Positions 41,993 through 53,594 of a stretch of DNA of 64,000 nucleotides are shown here, piece after piece. The stretch's first letter is position 1. Each line of letters begins with the position of its first letter. A program made the position numbers and the translations under genes. This DNA is from Acetobacteroides hydrogenigenes. GTDB lineage: Bacteria > Bacteroidota > Bacteroidia > Bacteroidales > ZOR0009. The stretch is taken from assembly GCF_004340205.1 (NCBI RefSeq), contig NZ_SLWB01000010.1, positions 62,001-126,000 on the forward strand, given 5' to 3'. The notes below the pieces were generated by a model. The model saw only the letters and a list, made by a program, of their open reading frames with translations. It did no database searches and was not told where the DNA came from.

Positions 41993-42754
41993 TTACAAAT
42001 TTCTAGTTACGTATGTCGAACTCGCTTGCTGTGTAGGAGTTACTTCGATGTCGTTAATGCTTACGTGGGCAGGTCTTGTTAAGACAAATAAAATTGTTTG
42101 CGCTATATCTTCGGCAAAAAGAGGCGTAATGCCAGAATAAACATTTTTCGCCTTGTCTTCGTCGCCATGGAAGCGGACAATTGAAAATTCCGTTTCTACC
42201 ATTCCAGGGCGAATCTGCGTTACCTTAATGTTGGATTTGAGCAAGTCTATGCGCATTGCTTTTGAAAGGGCATTAACAGCATGCTTTGTAGCACAGTAAA
42301 CATTCCCGTTTTCGTAAACCTCCGAGCCTGCAATTGAGCCTATATTTACAATATGGCCACCCTTGTGCTCAATCATTATGGGGGCAACCCTGCGGGTTAC
42401 ATATAGCAATCCTTTGATGTTGGTATCAATCATACGCTCCCAGTCTTCTTCCAGTCCTTCTTGGACATGGTTTAATCCTGCGGCTAGTCCTGCATTGTTT
42501 ATCAGAACATCAATTTTTCTCCAACGTTCGTGAAGGTTGCTAATAGCAGCATCTACTTGATCCTTGTCTCTTACATCAAAACTTAAAGGAAGCACATCCG
42601 CCTTATACTTAACCTCAATTTCTTTCTTTAAGTTGTCTAAAAGTTCTGTACGCCGTCCGGTGATTATTAGGTTATAGCCGTTTTCTGCGAGAAGAAGTGC
42701 AGTGGCTCTGCCAATTCCTGAAGTCGCACCAGTTACAAGTGCAATTTTTTTCAT
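41993..42754 (-). CDS. Short-chain dehydrogenase/reductase (YdfG-like)
   Basis: A 253-aa NAD(P)-dependent oxidoreductase of the classical SDR family. It has T-G-A-T-S-G-I-G (about 8-15), D-V-R-D, N-N-A-G-L-A-A (about 90), catalytic Ser in NIGSIAGS, and Y-C-A-T-K (Tyr and Lys, about 156-160), then IRPGMVETEFS. The pattern is closest to serine/3-hydroxy acid dehydrogenases such as YdfG, which reduce malonic semialdehyde or oxidise serine; that is a family-level guess. The ATG at 42752-42754 is used. TACCTTTG (complement of 42795-42802) is a good -7 element upstream. Confidence 0.92.
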   Translation of the reverse strand: MKKIALVTGATSGIGRATALLLAENGYNLIITGRRTELLDNLKKEIEVKYKADVLPLSFDVRDKDQVDAAISNLHERWRKIDVLINNAGLAAGLNHVQEGLEEDWERMIDTNIKGLLYVTRRVAPIMIEHKGGHIVNIGSIAGSEVYENGNVYCATKHAVNALSKAMRIDLLKSNIKVTQIRPGMVETEFSIVRFHGDEDKAKNVYSGITPLFAEDIAQTILFVLTRPAHVSINDIEVTPTQQASSTYVTRNL

Positions 42755-42925
42755 TTGGTCTGTTGTGTTTTTGAGCTGTTGCAAAAATGTCCTGCAAAGG
42801 TACGAAAAAGGATTTTAAGGAATAGCTAAAGACCTTCTCGTTTCGTAGAATCGAGATTTTAAAGAGTTAAATATTAAGGTTATATCTGAAATGTTAATTA
42901 GTTGTTTAGCATTAAATTGGAGTGT

Positions 42926-42956
42926 CTTGTATTTCAATAAGTATTTTTTATATTTG
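42926..42956 (+). promoter_or_regulatory. Promoter of the PurL-like/MenG gene
   Basis: CTTG at 42926-42929, 19-base spacer, TATATTTG at 42949-42956 (full TAnnTTTG). Start near 42963, 11 bases before the ATG at 42974. Confidence 0.7.
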
Positions 42957-42973: not shown

Positions 42974-45586
42974 ATGTTAATAGCAAAAACGGGAAATTCA
43001 CCTACCGAAAATGATCAAATTGGTCATTTCTTATCAGCAAAAATTGCCGATTATAATGCAATGCCCGATTCGCGTAAGAGTCTTATTAGGATGTTGTTTC
43101 GGCATTGTATTGCCTGCTCTGATAGTGCATTTGATGATCTGCCTATTAATTTTAGGATTCACCAAAGTATTTTTGGACAACGAGATGCAGGGATGAGTTC
43201 TATTGTGCTGAGCAATCCGAAGCCCTCCTTCTCCTTGCTCTCCGGTGTAGTCCCTTTTTACAACCGAACCTCCTTTCATCTGGGGAAAATTATTGACTAT
43301 ACTGCTAAATTCTATGCTTCGAGTGGATGTGCTGTAGTTGCTTCTCGAATGGCTTACTCGAAAACTCTTACTAAACCGATGCTTATTTCGTTAGATATTG
43401 GGTTGTCTAATGATTCTGAGGCTTTCTCGCTTACTCATCCATTTTATAAAGTGTATGCGGTTACTTTTTCTGGAGAGTCGAGTTCGTCGTTGCTGAAGGA
43501 GTATGATTTTTTTGATATCCTATGCTCTTTAAGGAGCGTGGGGAGCGATATCTTTTATAGTCTGATAGAGGAAGAGTCTGATTGCTGCTTCGTTGTTCGG
43601 TTAGCTACCCAGTTTGGATACAAGTTTTTGCTTGATACGGATTTGCTGAAGGAATCTGCCGGGCATAAAACGTTTTTGTGCGTTGTTTCTCCTACTGCTG
43701 TAGATAGGTTTGAAGAGGTGTGTAAAAACCTTAATGCTGTTTCTTGCGGAACTGTTTTTGAAGGAGTTGAAGAGAGTGTCTTTATAAGAAATGGAGAAAG
43801 GCTTCTTTTTTCCTCAATTCTAGTTAACGAAATTATTCTTTTAGCGGTAAGCTATCAATGCTATGGTAGTTCATCTGTAAAGTTGCATAGGAGCGAGGAG
43901 ACTTTTGTTCCTCAAAGTCATCATGTAGAACGCTCTATTCAAGATGTTCTCGAAAACATCGAATATGTATCTCCAAGTTTGCTAGCGTCTCGTTTTGACT
44001 CGTGTATTAATACATATCAAACGAGCGTTGCTCGTTCTCCGTACGTAACGTATTTTGCCGTAAAAGGTATAGGTAGATTCATGGTGTCATTAGATACGTA
44101 TGTACACGATGCCGATTTAGGAGGAGCGTTGGACTCTACCTTGAGGGTGATTTTTGAGCATCAGGCTTATGGTGCTACCCCTAGTTTAGCCTTAATTCGG
44201 TTGATTGAGCGGACTGGTAGTAATGGCGGTTATGGGCAGAGAATGATTGATGAGTTAATTAGATTTTTGGATATATTCTCGATACGATGCAAAATTGAGC
44301 GTGAAGAGATTGCTAGTATATCGGCTGATTATGTTTTATCCTTTGGACTAGTCTCTAAGTTGGAACATAAGGTTTCCGAACTAATGTCGGGTTTTAAGCA
44401 GAAAGGTGAACTAATTTATTCCATAGACCTTGCTTCTTGTGGAACTGGTTGCTCAACATCTTCCAACGAGGAATTGCCTTTTTCAAATCGCATAATATCA
44501 AACTTGGTTAGTTCCAAAATAGTAAATGCCATTTCTCCAATTTCACGAGGAGGCCTTTTCTTTTCTCTATTTTCGATGGGTGAAAGCCTGAATTTAGGCT
44601 TCGATATAACTGGTGATACGGAACAATCCTCAGAAAAATTTTTGTTTGATGACTCTATTGGGCGTACTGTTTTAGCCGTATCAGAAGAGCATGAAGCTCA
44701 TTTTGTTGATTTTATGCAAGAAACGGGGGTGCCTATAACATTGCTGGGGCATGTAACTAAAGGAGAAATAAGAATAGACGATGTTTCGTATGGTTTTATT
44801 GCTGATTTAAAAAAGAAAGTTTCCTTTGCATTCGATAATAATATAAAGAAAATGGCATCGAAAAAGGTTGTTAAGCCCTACGCAGATTCACAATCGACGA
44901 AGAAGGAACAGGTTGCAAGCATGTTTGACAATATTGCGTATAAGTATGATTTTTTAAATCACTTTCTTTCGTTAGGGATAGATAAGCTTTGGCGTAAAAA
45001 GTTGGTAAAGGAAGTTGGCAAGTATAGGCCTTCTCGAATTCTTGATGTTGCGACAGGAACTGGAGATCTTGCAATCGCATTGTCTAAGCTTAGACCTCAG
45101 AATATTGTAGGGATTGATATCTCCACAAAAATGGTAGAAGTGGGGGTTGAAAAGGTAAAAAAGGAAAAACTTGATGGTGTAATTTTTCTTCAAAAAGGTG
45201 ATTCTGAAATCATTAACTTTGACAGCAGCACCTTCGATTTTGCTACAGTTGCTTTTGGCGTTCGAAATTTTGAGAATCCGCTACTTGGCTTAAGAGAAAT
45301 GCATCGAGTCCTAAAGCCTGGAGGAGGTGTGGCTGTTTTGGAGTTTGCCATGCCAACAAAATTTCCCATTAGAAATCTTTACAAGTTTTATTTCTTTAGG
45401 ATACTTCCATTTGTTGGTAGGTTCTTTTCTAAGGATCGGTCGGCATATACTTATTTACCCGAATCGGTGGAGGCTTTCCCAAGTGGAGCAAGTTTCTTAG
45501 CGTTACTTAAAGAAGCTGGTTTTACAAAAGCGAGGATCATTCCATTAACTTTTGGTGTTGCAAATATCTATATCGGAGAGAAGTAG
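42974..45586 (+). CDS. menG: Divergent PurL-like (AIR synthase-fold) domain read in frame into MenG/UbiE methyltransferase
   Basis: An 870-aa frame with two unlike parts. Residues 627-870 are a complete demethylmenaquinone methyltransferase: KKEQVASMFDNIAYKYDFLNHFLSLGIDKLWR, SAM motif ILDVATGTGDLA, FGVRNFENPLLGLREMHRVLKPGG and a normal C-terminus (last step of menaquinone synthesis). Residues 1 to about 620 resemble the duplicated AIR synthase/PurL fold. The clearest pieces are FLCVVSPTAVDRFEEVCKNL, SPSLLASRFDSCINTY to LGGALDSTLR, and IGRTVLAVSEEHEAHFVDFM to TLLGHVTKGEI. The usual PurL catalytic and ATP motifs (such as ESHNHPS) are not seen, so it may be inactive. ATG 44852 opens the second part and could be an independent start. 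porT follows. Confidence 0.8.
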   Translation: MLIAKTGNSPTENDQIGHFLSAKIADYNAMPDSRKSLIRMLFRHCIACSDSAFDDLPINFRIHQSIFGQRDAGMSSIVLSNPKPSFSLLSGVVPFYNRTSFHLGKIIDYTAKFYASSGCAVVASRMAYSKTLTKPMLISLDIGLSNDSEAFSLTHPFYKVYAVTFSGESSSSLLKEYDFFDILCSLRSVGSDIFYSLIEEESDCCFVVRLATQFGYKFLLDTDLLKESAGHKTFLCVVSPTAVDRFEEVCKNLNAVSCGTVFEGVEESVFIRNGERLLFSSILVNEIILLAVSYQCYGSSSVKLHRSEETFVPQSHHVERSIQDVLENIEYVSPSLLASRFDSCINTYQTSVARSPYVTYFAVKGIGRFMVSLDTYVHDADLGGALDSTLRVIFEHQAYGATPSLALIRLIERTGSNGGYGQRMIDELIRFLDIFSIRCKIEREEIASISADYVLSFGLVSKLEHKVSELMSGFKQKGELIYSIDLASCGTGCSTSSNEELPFSNRIISNLVSSKIVNAISPISRGGLFFSLFSMGESLNLGFDITGDTEQSSEKFLFDDSIGRTVLAVSEEHEAHFVDFMQETGVPITLLGHVTKGEIRIDDVSYGFIADLKKKVSFAFDNNIKKMASKKVVKPYADSQSTKKEQVASMFDNIAYKYDFLNHFLSLGIDKLWRKKLVKEVGKYRPSRILDVATGTGDLAIALSKLRPQNIVGIDISTKMVEVGVEKVKKEKLDGVIFLQKGDSEIINFDSSTFDFATVAFGVRNFENPLLGLREMHRVLKPGGGVAVLEFAMPTKFPIRNLYKFYFFRILPFVGRFFSKDRSAYTYLPESVEAFPSGASFLALLKEAGFTKARIIPLTFGVANIYIGEK

Positions 45587-45591
45587 TGAGT

Positions 45592-46344
45592 ATGAATAGT
45601 AGGGGAAGGTTTGCTCTTTTAGTGATTGTTGCCGTGTTTTTGGCAAACTTTTCTTATGGGCAGTTAAAAAAGAGTCGTCCCCTTACCAACCCTGCTTATG
45701 ATTTAGGAAAGCGTATCCACTTTGGATTTTCATTAGGGATAAACAGCATGGATGCAGAGGTTGATTGTAAAAGATTCTTTGCTGTCGATGAGTATGGTAA
45801 GACCGTTTTGCTTTGGACAGATATATCTCAAGTACTTCCTGGTTTTAATGTAAACATCATATCTGAGTTAAGAATAACCCGTAATCTTGGACTTCGAGTA
45901 TTGCCTGGAATGTCGTTTGGACAGCGAACGTTTTCGTTCTATGCTATAACAAATGCGGCTAACGAAAAGGACTCCCTTTACCATAAGATGAAAATTGAAT
46001 CCTCAATGATAGAGGTTCCTATTCTTTTAAAGTATAGTGCCGTTAGGCATAGCGATATTAGACCTTATTTAATAGGCGGATTTACTCCTCGCTATGATTT
46101 AGCGGCCCGTAAAAGATTCACCGATGATGTTTATTTGGGTTTGAACAAGCTGAACTTTTATGTTGAACTTGGTTTCGGCTTTGACTTTTATCTTCCTTAT
46201 TTCAAATTTGGCACAGAAATAAAGTACACTAGGGGGCTGAACAATATGCTCTCGGATCGGACTAGGGATGGATATGAGTATTTCCCCCAATCGATAGATG
46301 GGATAATTACCGATATGGTCGTAATATCTTTTAACTTCGAATAG
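45592..46344 (+). CDS. porT: PorT-family beta-barrel protein (type IX secretion)
   Basis: Outer-membrane-associated beta-barrel protein needed for the type IX secretion system in relatives such as Porphyromonas. The 250-aa protein has a signal peptide (about 1-24), then KKSRPLTNPAYDLGKRIHFGFSLGIN and alternating beta-strand segments ending in an aromatic residue (VVISFNFE), which suits barrel insertion. The position directly after menG/ubiE is conserved in the phylum. The ATG at 45592 follows the menG stop by 5 bases; a GTG at 45586 would overlap that stop. No other type IX genes are in this window. Confidence 0.85.
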   Translation: MNSRGRFALLVIVAVFLANFSYGQLKKSRPLTNPAYDLGKRIHFGFSLGINSMDAEVDCKRFFAVDEYGKTVLLWTDISQVLPGFNVNIISELRITRNLGLRVLPGMSFGQRTFSFYAITNAANEKDSLYHKMKIESSMIEVPILLKYSAVRHSDIRPYLIGGFTPRYDLAARKRFTDDVYLGLNKLNFYVELGFGFDFYLPYFKFGTEIKYTRGLNNMLSDRTRDGYEYFPQSIDGIITDMVVISFNFE

Positions 46345-52706: not shown

Positions 52707-53594
52707 ATGATAGCTCAGTTTGGACAATACCTTCTTGCGGAAAAAAGATATTCTCCACAAACTGTAAAAGCATATAAAACAGATCTTTTACAGTTTGTGG
52801 ATTTTTTAGGTTATACCCCTGATGAATTTGCTCCATGCGAAGTGACGCATGTGCTCGTAAGGGAGTGGGTTGTTAGTCTTGTTAAATCAGGATTAGCTCC
52901 ATGCTCTGTAAATCGTAAAATAGCAACGCTAAACTCCTACTTTAAGTATCTAAAAAGGGCTGGAGTAATTAATAAAAACCCAGCGGCAAAAGTTGTTCAT
53001 CCAAAGCAACCCAAACGTCTTCCCTCATTTGTTAGTTATGAAGCCACTGAGCGATTTGCGCATAGTAGTGCGGATGATTTTTTGTCATTGAGGAATCTTC
53101 TAATTGTTGAACTCCTCTACACCAGCGGAATTCGAAGTGCAGAACTAATGGGATTAAAACTTGAAGATGTTGACTGCCAGTGTTTAACTCTACGAGTGCT
53201 AGGAAAAGGGAAAAAAGAACGAATAATTCCGATAATTCCGAGTACTAATTCTCTTTTAAAATGCTATATTAGCAAAAGAGAGGACTTCCTTAACGGGCTT
53301 TCGGCACCTTACCTCATTTTAACTGCTAAGGGTGAACAAATATACCCGAAGCTCGTTGAAAGAGTTGTAAAAGAAATGCTGAAAAATGCTGGTGTCAAAG
53401 GGAAACGAAACCCACATATTTTAAGGCATACCTTTGCAACGCACCTGTTGAATAACGGAGCCGATTTGCTTAGTATAAAGGAGATGCTAGGGCACACTTC
53501 GGTAGGGACAACTCAAATTTATATGCATAATACGTTGGAAAAGGTAAAGACTTCATACATGAAGGCTCACCCAAGGGCCAACAAAAACAGTTAG
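52707..53594 (+). CDS. Tyrosine recombinase XerC/XerD
   Basis: Site-specific recombinase that resolves chromosome dimers at dif. The 295-aa protein has an N-terminal SAM-like core-binding domain (about 1-85) and the catalytic domain with the full set of active residues: Arg143 (TSGIRSAEL), Lys near 167-169 (LGKGKKERIIP), His237 and Arg240 (HILRHTFATHLL), His263 (LGHTSV) and Tyr272 (TTQIYMH). Whether it is the XerC or XerD copy cannot be decided here. Placement between rpsU and hpf argues for a housekeeping enzyme rather than a mobile-element integrase; no flanking repeats were seen. Confidence 0.93.
   Translation: MIAQFGQYLLAEKRYSPQTVKAYKTDLLQFVDFLGYTPDEFAPCEVTHVLVREWVVSLVKSGLAPCSVNRKIATLNSYFKYLKRAGVINKNPAAKVVHPKQPKRLPSFVSYEATERFAHSSADDFLSLRNLLIVELLYTSGIRSAELMGLKLEDVDCQCLTLRVLGKGKKERIIPIIPSTNSLLKCYISKREDFLNGLSAPYLILTAKGEQIYPKLVERVVKEMLKNAGVKGKRNPHILRHTFATHLLNNGADLLSIKEMLGHTSVGTTQIYMHNTLEKVKTSYMKAHPRANKNS

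Follow-up and report, generated by a model that had tools for sequence, protein, structure and literature searches.

Why a methyltransferase of menaquinone synthesis should be read in one frame with a PurL-like protein, and what that protein is kept for, is the question raised by a locus of Acetobacteroides hydrogenigenes. The window analysed is the whole stretch of 64,000 nucleotides (contig NZ_SLWB01000010.1, positions 62,001 to 126,000), and all coordinates below refer to it.

The fused reading frame and its two parts

The frame at 42974-45586 on the forward strand starts with ATG and runs through 870 codons without an internal stop. The mechanical ORF begins slightly upstream, at GTG 42965, which is probably not used as a start. 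A promoter-like box, TATATTTG (42949-42956, forward strand), is situated 25 nt upstream of ATG 42974 and occurs at identical spacing (-25) before the fusion ATG in all three genomes of the window's family. It fits TAnnTTTG, the promoter consensus of the Bacteroidota; near the junction of the two parts no TAnnTTTG was found that would point to an internal promoter. Upstream, on the reverse strand, lies a divergent syntenic neighbour, a short-chain dehydrogenase (41993-42784; PF00106, 195 bits; cluster 2, found in 74 of the 102 loci compared). Downstream, the type IX secretion protein PorT/SprT is encoded at 45586-46344 on the forward strand (NF052311, 185.3 bits, cut-off 125). The fusion stop TAG (45584-45586) shares one base with the GTG start of PorT/SprT, and because of this overlap MenG and PorT/SprT probably belong to one operon.

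The C-terminal part, residues 627-870 plus stop (44852-45586, forward strand), is by score and full-length match a complete MenG/UbiE protein, with methylation itself as its predicted activity. TIGR01934 matches fusion residues 647-870 with 260.4 bits (cut-off 158.35) over profile positions 1-223 of 223, and PF01209 (UbiE/COQ5) matches residues 641-870 with 212.9 bits (cut-off 20.1). The first residue of this part, M627 (ATG 44852), is invariant in the three family genomes. The genome of the window also encodes MenA above cut-off, and the fusion is its only TIGR01934 match above cut-off. The sole such MenG of this genome thus sits inside a fusion of about 95 kDa, which matters for annotation.

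The N-terminal part, residues 1-626 (42974-44851, forward strand), will be referred to as PurL'. Family models recognise it faintly. AIRS_C (PF02769) matches residues 513-598 (44510-44767, forward strand), the best conserved stretch of PurL', with 27-28 bits against a cut-off of 23.1, while the PurL models NF002290 (46.5-47.1 bits, cut-off 648) and TIGR01736 (37-39 bits, cut-off 525.75) match around residues 505-609, far below their cut-offs. A phmmer search of the N-terminal part against PDB gave no match up to E 1, and in a first scan of genome contigs with patterns of this part only, none of the 26 pattern matches was a relative. Comparison of profiles by hhalign, with three family sequences against 13 intact small PurLs, aligned 510 columns with a probability of 99.8% and an E value of 6.1e-30. 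Residues 97-616 of the fusion are therefore homologous to small PurL (FGAM synthase II), as judged from this alignment. An unrelated fold, which the original prediction had named as one possible refutation, was rejected on the strength of the profile match together with synteny, both pointing to PurL, and the predicted stop-free frame of a degenerate PurL and a complete 244-residue MenG was borne out by hhalign and TIGR01934. An alignment that put the entire fusion together with PurL and MenG sequences (61 rows) was discarded, as the PurL rows aligned onto MenG.

In the structure comparison that had been proposed, each of the 25 best PDB chains for the predicted structure of the N-terminal part was a PurL or FGAM synthetase (Z 14.5-16.6), and residues 314-625 could be superposed on Thermus PurL with 2.7 Å over 172 residues. 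The model itself was poor (pTM 0.37; the two sister proteins were left out of its alignment), and for 15 of the 25 chains the rmsd across the whole part was about 14-21 Å. With such a pTM, these structural matches are weak evidence.

Distribution and ancestry of the fusion

The fusion is free of stops in all three family genomes (862-881 codons). Compared with the window, the PurL part of the other two is 58% and 35% identical, and MenG 90% and 82%. As far as three genomes show, the fusion is fixed in this family. A recent frame change had been suspected from TAA codons seen in another frame before the junction. The TAA exists (44836-44838, forward strand, -1 frame, 16 nt before ATG 44852), and a -1-frame stop lies 13-16 nt upstream of the conserved ATG in all three genomes; with a shared frame over PurL parts only 35-58% identical the change is not a recent one.

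When 295 genomes of the order were searched with the fused profile, no further PurL-MenG fusion was seen among the matches listed, which reach down to about E 4e-77; a fusion would be expected to score above that limit. At G131, G209 and G055 long open frames were considered as other fusions and rejected, each consisting of two separate ORFs. Two ORFs were likewise read in each of nine regions with both genes and in L051, and a tenth region contained menG only.

The order short-chain dehydrogenase, purL, menG, porT, FAD protein, rRNA methyltransferase is the same in the window and in unfused relatives, with menG adjoining purL in six of 19 unfused relatives. Of 80 named loci, 79 have a separate menG preceded, within 750 nt, by a PurL-like ORF; this sample is biased, because the scan patterns derive from the PurL part (e.g. 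LGHVTKGE) and the fused query determined the ranking. A FastTree tree was built from MenG and four syntenic proteins for 74 of the 88 loci that have MenG. It places L039 as the sister of the fused clade with a support of 0.998, and L039 carries an intact, unfused purL whose 3' end overlaps menG. The best reading of these sequences is that two neighbouring genes with a stop between them were the ancestral state, and that the fusion arose by loss of the stop. The neighbourhood check suggested with the original prediction accordingly has two sides: outside the family the stop between two genes exists, as the ancestral condition, and inside it all three genomes are fused. The link between purine-type chemistry and menaquinone methylation, which the original prediction called unexpected, looks like old gene order rather than shared chemistry, as many unfused relatives have purL next to menG. 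Degenerate PurL was also found without an adjacent menG, in the stretches read, in G009, G012, G018 and G037, which weakens a role specific to MenG. At the G009 locus (L047) the next gene is the member of the porT cluster, and the stretch read contains no menG.

Decay of small PurL and the presence of large PurL

The original prediction that the PurL-like part lacks the catalytic motifs, and may be a pseudo-enzyme, agrees with a check of conserved positions. PurL' of the window keeps none of the 12 tabulated positions, the N-terminal alignment being uncertain: the His of MWSEH, catalytic in PurL, as well as HNHP and the D, E and N positions are lost. With its catalytic residues gone and its sequence under selection (see below), PurL' is probably a pseudo-enzyme.

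The same decay was found in relatives. When scored against the intact profile, 102 PurL rows (100 loci, the window and one duplicate reference) fell into 22 at 1282.7 or more and 80 at 945.8 or less; L111, with no PurL ORF, lies outside the 100-locus table, and L094 scores low only because a contig end cuts the gene. All 12 tabulated positions are retained in 22 of 22 high-scoring rows, and at least one is missing in each of the 23 low-scoring rows longer than 600 aa. The 742-aa type and L047 have lost other conserved positions and keep the His and HNHP; although classed as degenerate from their sequences, they may not be dead. Odd fragments also occur among the low-scoring rows (L095, L114, L150, L084). 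Those of L114 and L150, very short at 188 and 237 aa, are strongly diverged remnants of PurL that precede menG and retain LGHVTKGE, a biased observation because LGHVTKGE was a search pattern.

In half-length forms the NCLNFGNP and GGNVSFYNQ stretches of intact PurL are replaced. Their model (pTM 0.81) matched best the C-terminal half of Thermus PurL (Z 26.3, 3.0 Å, 305 residues). In a FastTree tree, which was midpoint-rooted and has one inner node with a support of 0.028, each of the four degenerate types is a clade of its own, and intact types stand between these clades. If an active site is never regained, this means at least four separate losses. Judged by sequence, small PurL is thus retired yet retained in several lineages, the family of the window being one of them.

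The genome of the window carries a separate large PurL of 1250 aa, above cut-off, which aligns end to end with the human and Salmonella enzymes and retains SEHC, HNFP, GHDIS, GVCNGCQ (Cys) and MPHFER (His). This gene, a dead stand-alone PurQ and the fact that small PurL has decayed in other families too all lie beyond the reach of the original prediction, which was made from the window only. Large PurL is the counterpart of small PurL, PurS and PurQ combined (PMC3261824, PMC3815217).

Among 60 relatives, 22 had a small PurL match, of which 14 were intact and eight degenerate. Small PurL was intact in 13 of 13 relatives without large PurL, and degenerate in eight of nine with it. Counted the other way, large PurL was present in one of 14 relatives with intact small PurL (G008) versus eight of eight with the degenerate form (Fisher p 2.8e-5, uncorrected for kinship). 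PurS was found in 13 of the 14 versus none of the eight, and a search for PurS in the three family genomes gave no match at E 0.001. G008 (L041, L156) combines a large PurL with intact small PurL, PurS and a PurQ with Gly at the Cys position, and is possibly an intermediate state. In G057 the large PurL is split into two adjacent ORFs of 599 and 734 aa (C60:30033-33739).

The PurQ survey took in 48 of the 80 named loci and covered 47 genomes (one genome, G058 = G072, is counted both here and among the relatives). In the three genomes whose small PurL is intact, PurQ is a gene of its own, above cut-off, and there is no large frame. In the other 44, the glutaminase domain lies in a frame of 1153-1322 aa in 39 and in shorter frames in two (795 and 263 aa), and three gave no strong match. 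No stand-alone PurQ above 31 bits was found in the degenerate-PurL genomes of this survey, except for the 263-aa frame in G079, which stands at a contig end or start and whose score resembles that of the large-PurL domain.

In each of the three family genomes a PurQ-like gene of 227 aa stands alone (PurQ'; 110-123 bits, below the TIGR01737 cut-off of 177.8), by eye at the location of intact purQ in G026. Its nucleophile Cys is replaced by Gln and its His by Asn in all three. PurQ of G009 has Gly at the Cys position and Gln at the His position. As stand-alone PurQ is absent from most degenerate-PurL genomes, a complex of PurL' with PurQ' cannot be general.

Selection, the junction and competing explanations

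Between the window and G002, PurL' showed a pS of 0.80 and a pN of 0.25, and MenG 0.72 and 0.06; because synonymous sites are saturated, no dN/dS ratio is given for either within the family. For PurQ' the values were 0.66 and 0.14. PurL' is the fastest-evolving of nine stretches compared within the family, and its N-terminal 450 residues are 22-28% identical to G001. Residues 501-625 are 74% and 61% identical in the family, a constraint like that of ordinary neighbours. In other families dN/dS could be taken from pairs with dS 0.1-1.6, usable being 7 of 120 and 3 of 3 pairs of half-length forms, 14 of 36 of the 718-aa forms, 2 of 15 of intact small PurL and 0 of 15 of the 742-aa degenerate type. 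It was 0.019-0.087 for the ten half-length pairs, lower than in the adjacent MenG in seven of nine pairs with both values; 0.050-0.091 in 13 of the 14 pairs of 718-aa forms and 0.249 in the remaining one; and 0.074 and 0.146 for intact small PurL. The substitution patterns show purifying selection on PurL' and PurQ'.

A block of unusual synonymous conservation was found at the junction, at codons 609-622 (44798-44839, forward strand), by codon comparison of the three genomes. Synonymous-codon identity peaks at 0.73 in codons 601-630, against 0.21-0.57 in the other 30-codon bins. In the windows 609-620 and 611-622, the three genomes agree in ten of 11 informative codons, compared with 90 of 350 gene-wide (binomial p 1e-5 for one window, uncorrected for the number of windows scanned), and no 12-codon window in six neighbour genes holds more than eight identical informative codons. 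A cluster 17 gene (52707-53594) has 11 of 11 identical near its start, the strongest among the genes compared, with one of its three copies cut short by the stretch taken. The block contains A_AAA_AAG in phase (44809-44815, forward strand), a possible -1 slip site present in all three genomes. Such a heptamer followed shortly by a -1-frame stop, as in dnaX-type frameshifting, was thus found in each of them. The conservation suggests a translation signal, which could be either a -1 slip or an internal start.

The reading preferred here, with a rough probability of 0.6, is that a decommissioned small purL, having lost its stop codon, now forms the N-terminal part of the menG frame, PurL' being retained as a non-catalytic protein of the AIRS fold. 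Large PurL would have taken over FGAM synthesis; small PurL would then have lost its active site and remained as a protein working by binding, with partners that perhaps include the dead PurQ. Loss of the stop codon would have joined it to MenG, to which it may be tethered as an accessory domain holding, stabilising or tuning the methyltransferase. Since the retired PurL is also kept unfused in other families, the new function is probably independent of the fusion. The combination of large PurL and intact small PurL in G008 counts against this reading, as do the fast evolution of PurL', the degenerate PurLs that have no menG beside them, the loss of stand-alone PurQ from most genomes with degenerate PurL, and the forms classed as degenerate that keep the His and HNHP. 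A wider form of it is tentative, with the odds somewhat against: gain of large PurL would repeatedly have freed small PurL, and sometimes PurQ, for one shared non-catalytic function, often at the menG-porT position, and in one family PurL would have become part of MenG, so that this function is coupled to the making of menaquinone; a frameshift or internal start would perhaps determine how much product is fused and how much free.

The conserved junction could also mean that two products are made from one mRNA: the fusion together with MenG alone, translated from ATG 44852, or a -1 slip ending at TAA 44836 with re-initiation at MenG. The codon identity of the block and the presence of heptamer, -1 stop and ATG in all three genomes speak for this, but the heptamer is found in phase elsewhere too (e.g. 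three more times in the window genes compared), the cluster 17 gene reaches 11 of 11 in a single window, the predicted folds of the 60 nt after the heptamer are weak and dissimilar, and the comparison covers three genomes only. Production of two proteins is therefore possible though doubtful, and it would add to the preferred reading rather than replace it. That PurL' is a useless relic, trapped between the essential MenG and the promoter and start codon on which MenG depends, all in one frame, is unlikely. It would account for the fast evolution of PurL', the low identity of its N-terminal 450 residues and the promoter-like box found before ATG 42974 only. Against it stand an amino-acid identity of 35-58% despite saturated synonymous sites, the neighbour-like constraint on residues 501-625, the retention of the unlinked PurQ', and the low dN/dS of half-length forms, which are unfused and have their own stop. 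Strong selection on these forms would also fit a new enzymatic activity on the AIRS fold, a versatile superfamily (HypE, SelD and ThiL are among the structure matches of the half-length model); with none of the 12 positions kept in the window and NCLNFGNP and GGNVSFYNQ replaced in half-length forms, such an activity is quite improbable. That two genes were joined artificially, by a frameshift or by an error of sequencing or assembly, has a negligible chance. The separate genes of relatives outside the family would fit it, but it was ruled out, as was a recent fusion, by a frame common to three genomes, one of them a single contig, with divergent PurL parts.

If the preferred reading is right, the locus is a natural experiment on the fate of a core metabolic enzyme after displacement, in which the active site decays while the protein persists, more strongly constrained in some lineages than the neighbouring MenG. 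A second, non-catalytic function of FGAM synthase subunits thereby becomes testable. Genes of this kind match AIRS/PurL models in dozens of genomes, where FGAM synthesis should not be expected from them. Literature searches listed no paper on a degenerate PurL kept or fused to MenG.

Among known systems, small PurL (smPurL; TIGR01736, NF002290) is the closest: PurL' is homologous to it along most of its length and occupies the orthologous place beside menG, but lacks the conserved active-site positions, scores far below cut-off, has no PurS in its genome and is fused to MenG. Large PurL (FGAR-AT; TIGR01735) contains the same PurL core; unlike PurL', it keeps the motifs and a glutaminase domain, and it is unlinked to menG in the genome of the window. 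In comparison with MenG/UbiE (TIGR01934), the fusion has the complete protein as its C-terminal part, above cut-off, and adds an N-terminal extension of 626 residues. The junction shares the in-phase heptamer and nearby -1-frame stop with programmed -1 frameshift sites of the dnaX type; the folds predicted after the site are weak and dissimilar. The half-length PurL before menG in Draconibacterium, Maribellus, Sunxiuqinia and other Prolixibacteraceae is likewise a retired small PurL under selection, and differs in comprising only the C-terminal half (about 345 aa), with its own stop codon and in a separate clade.
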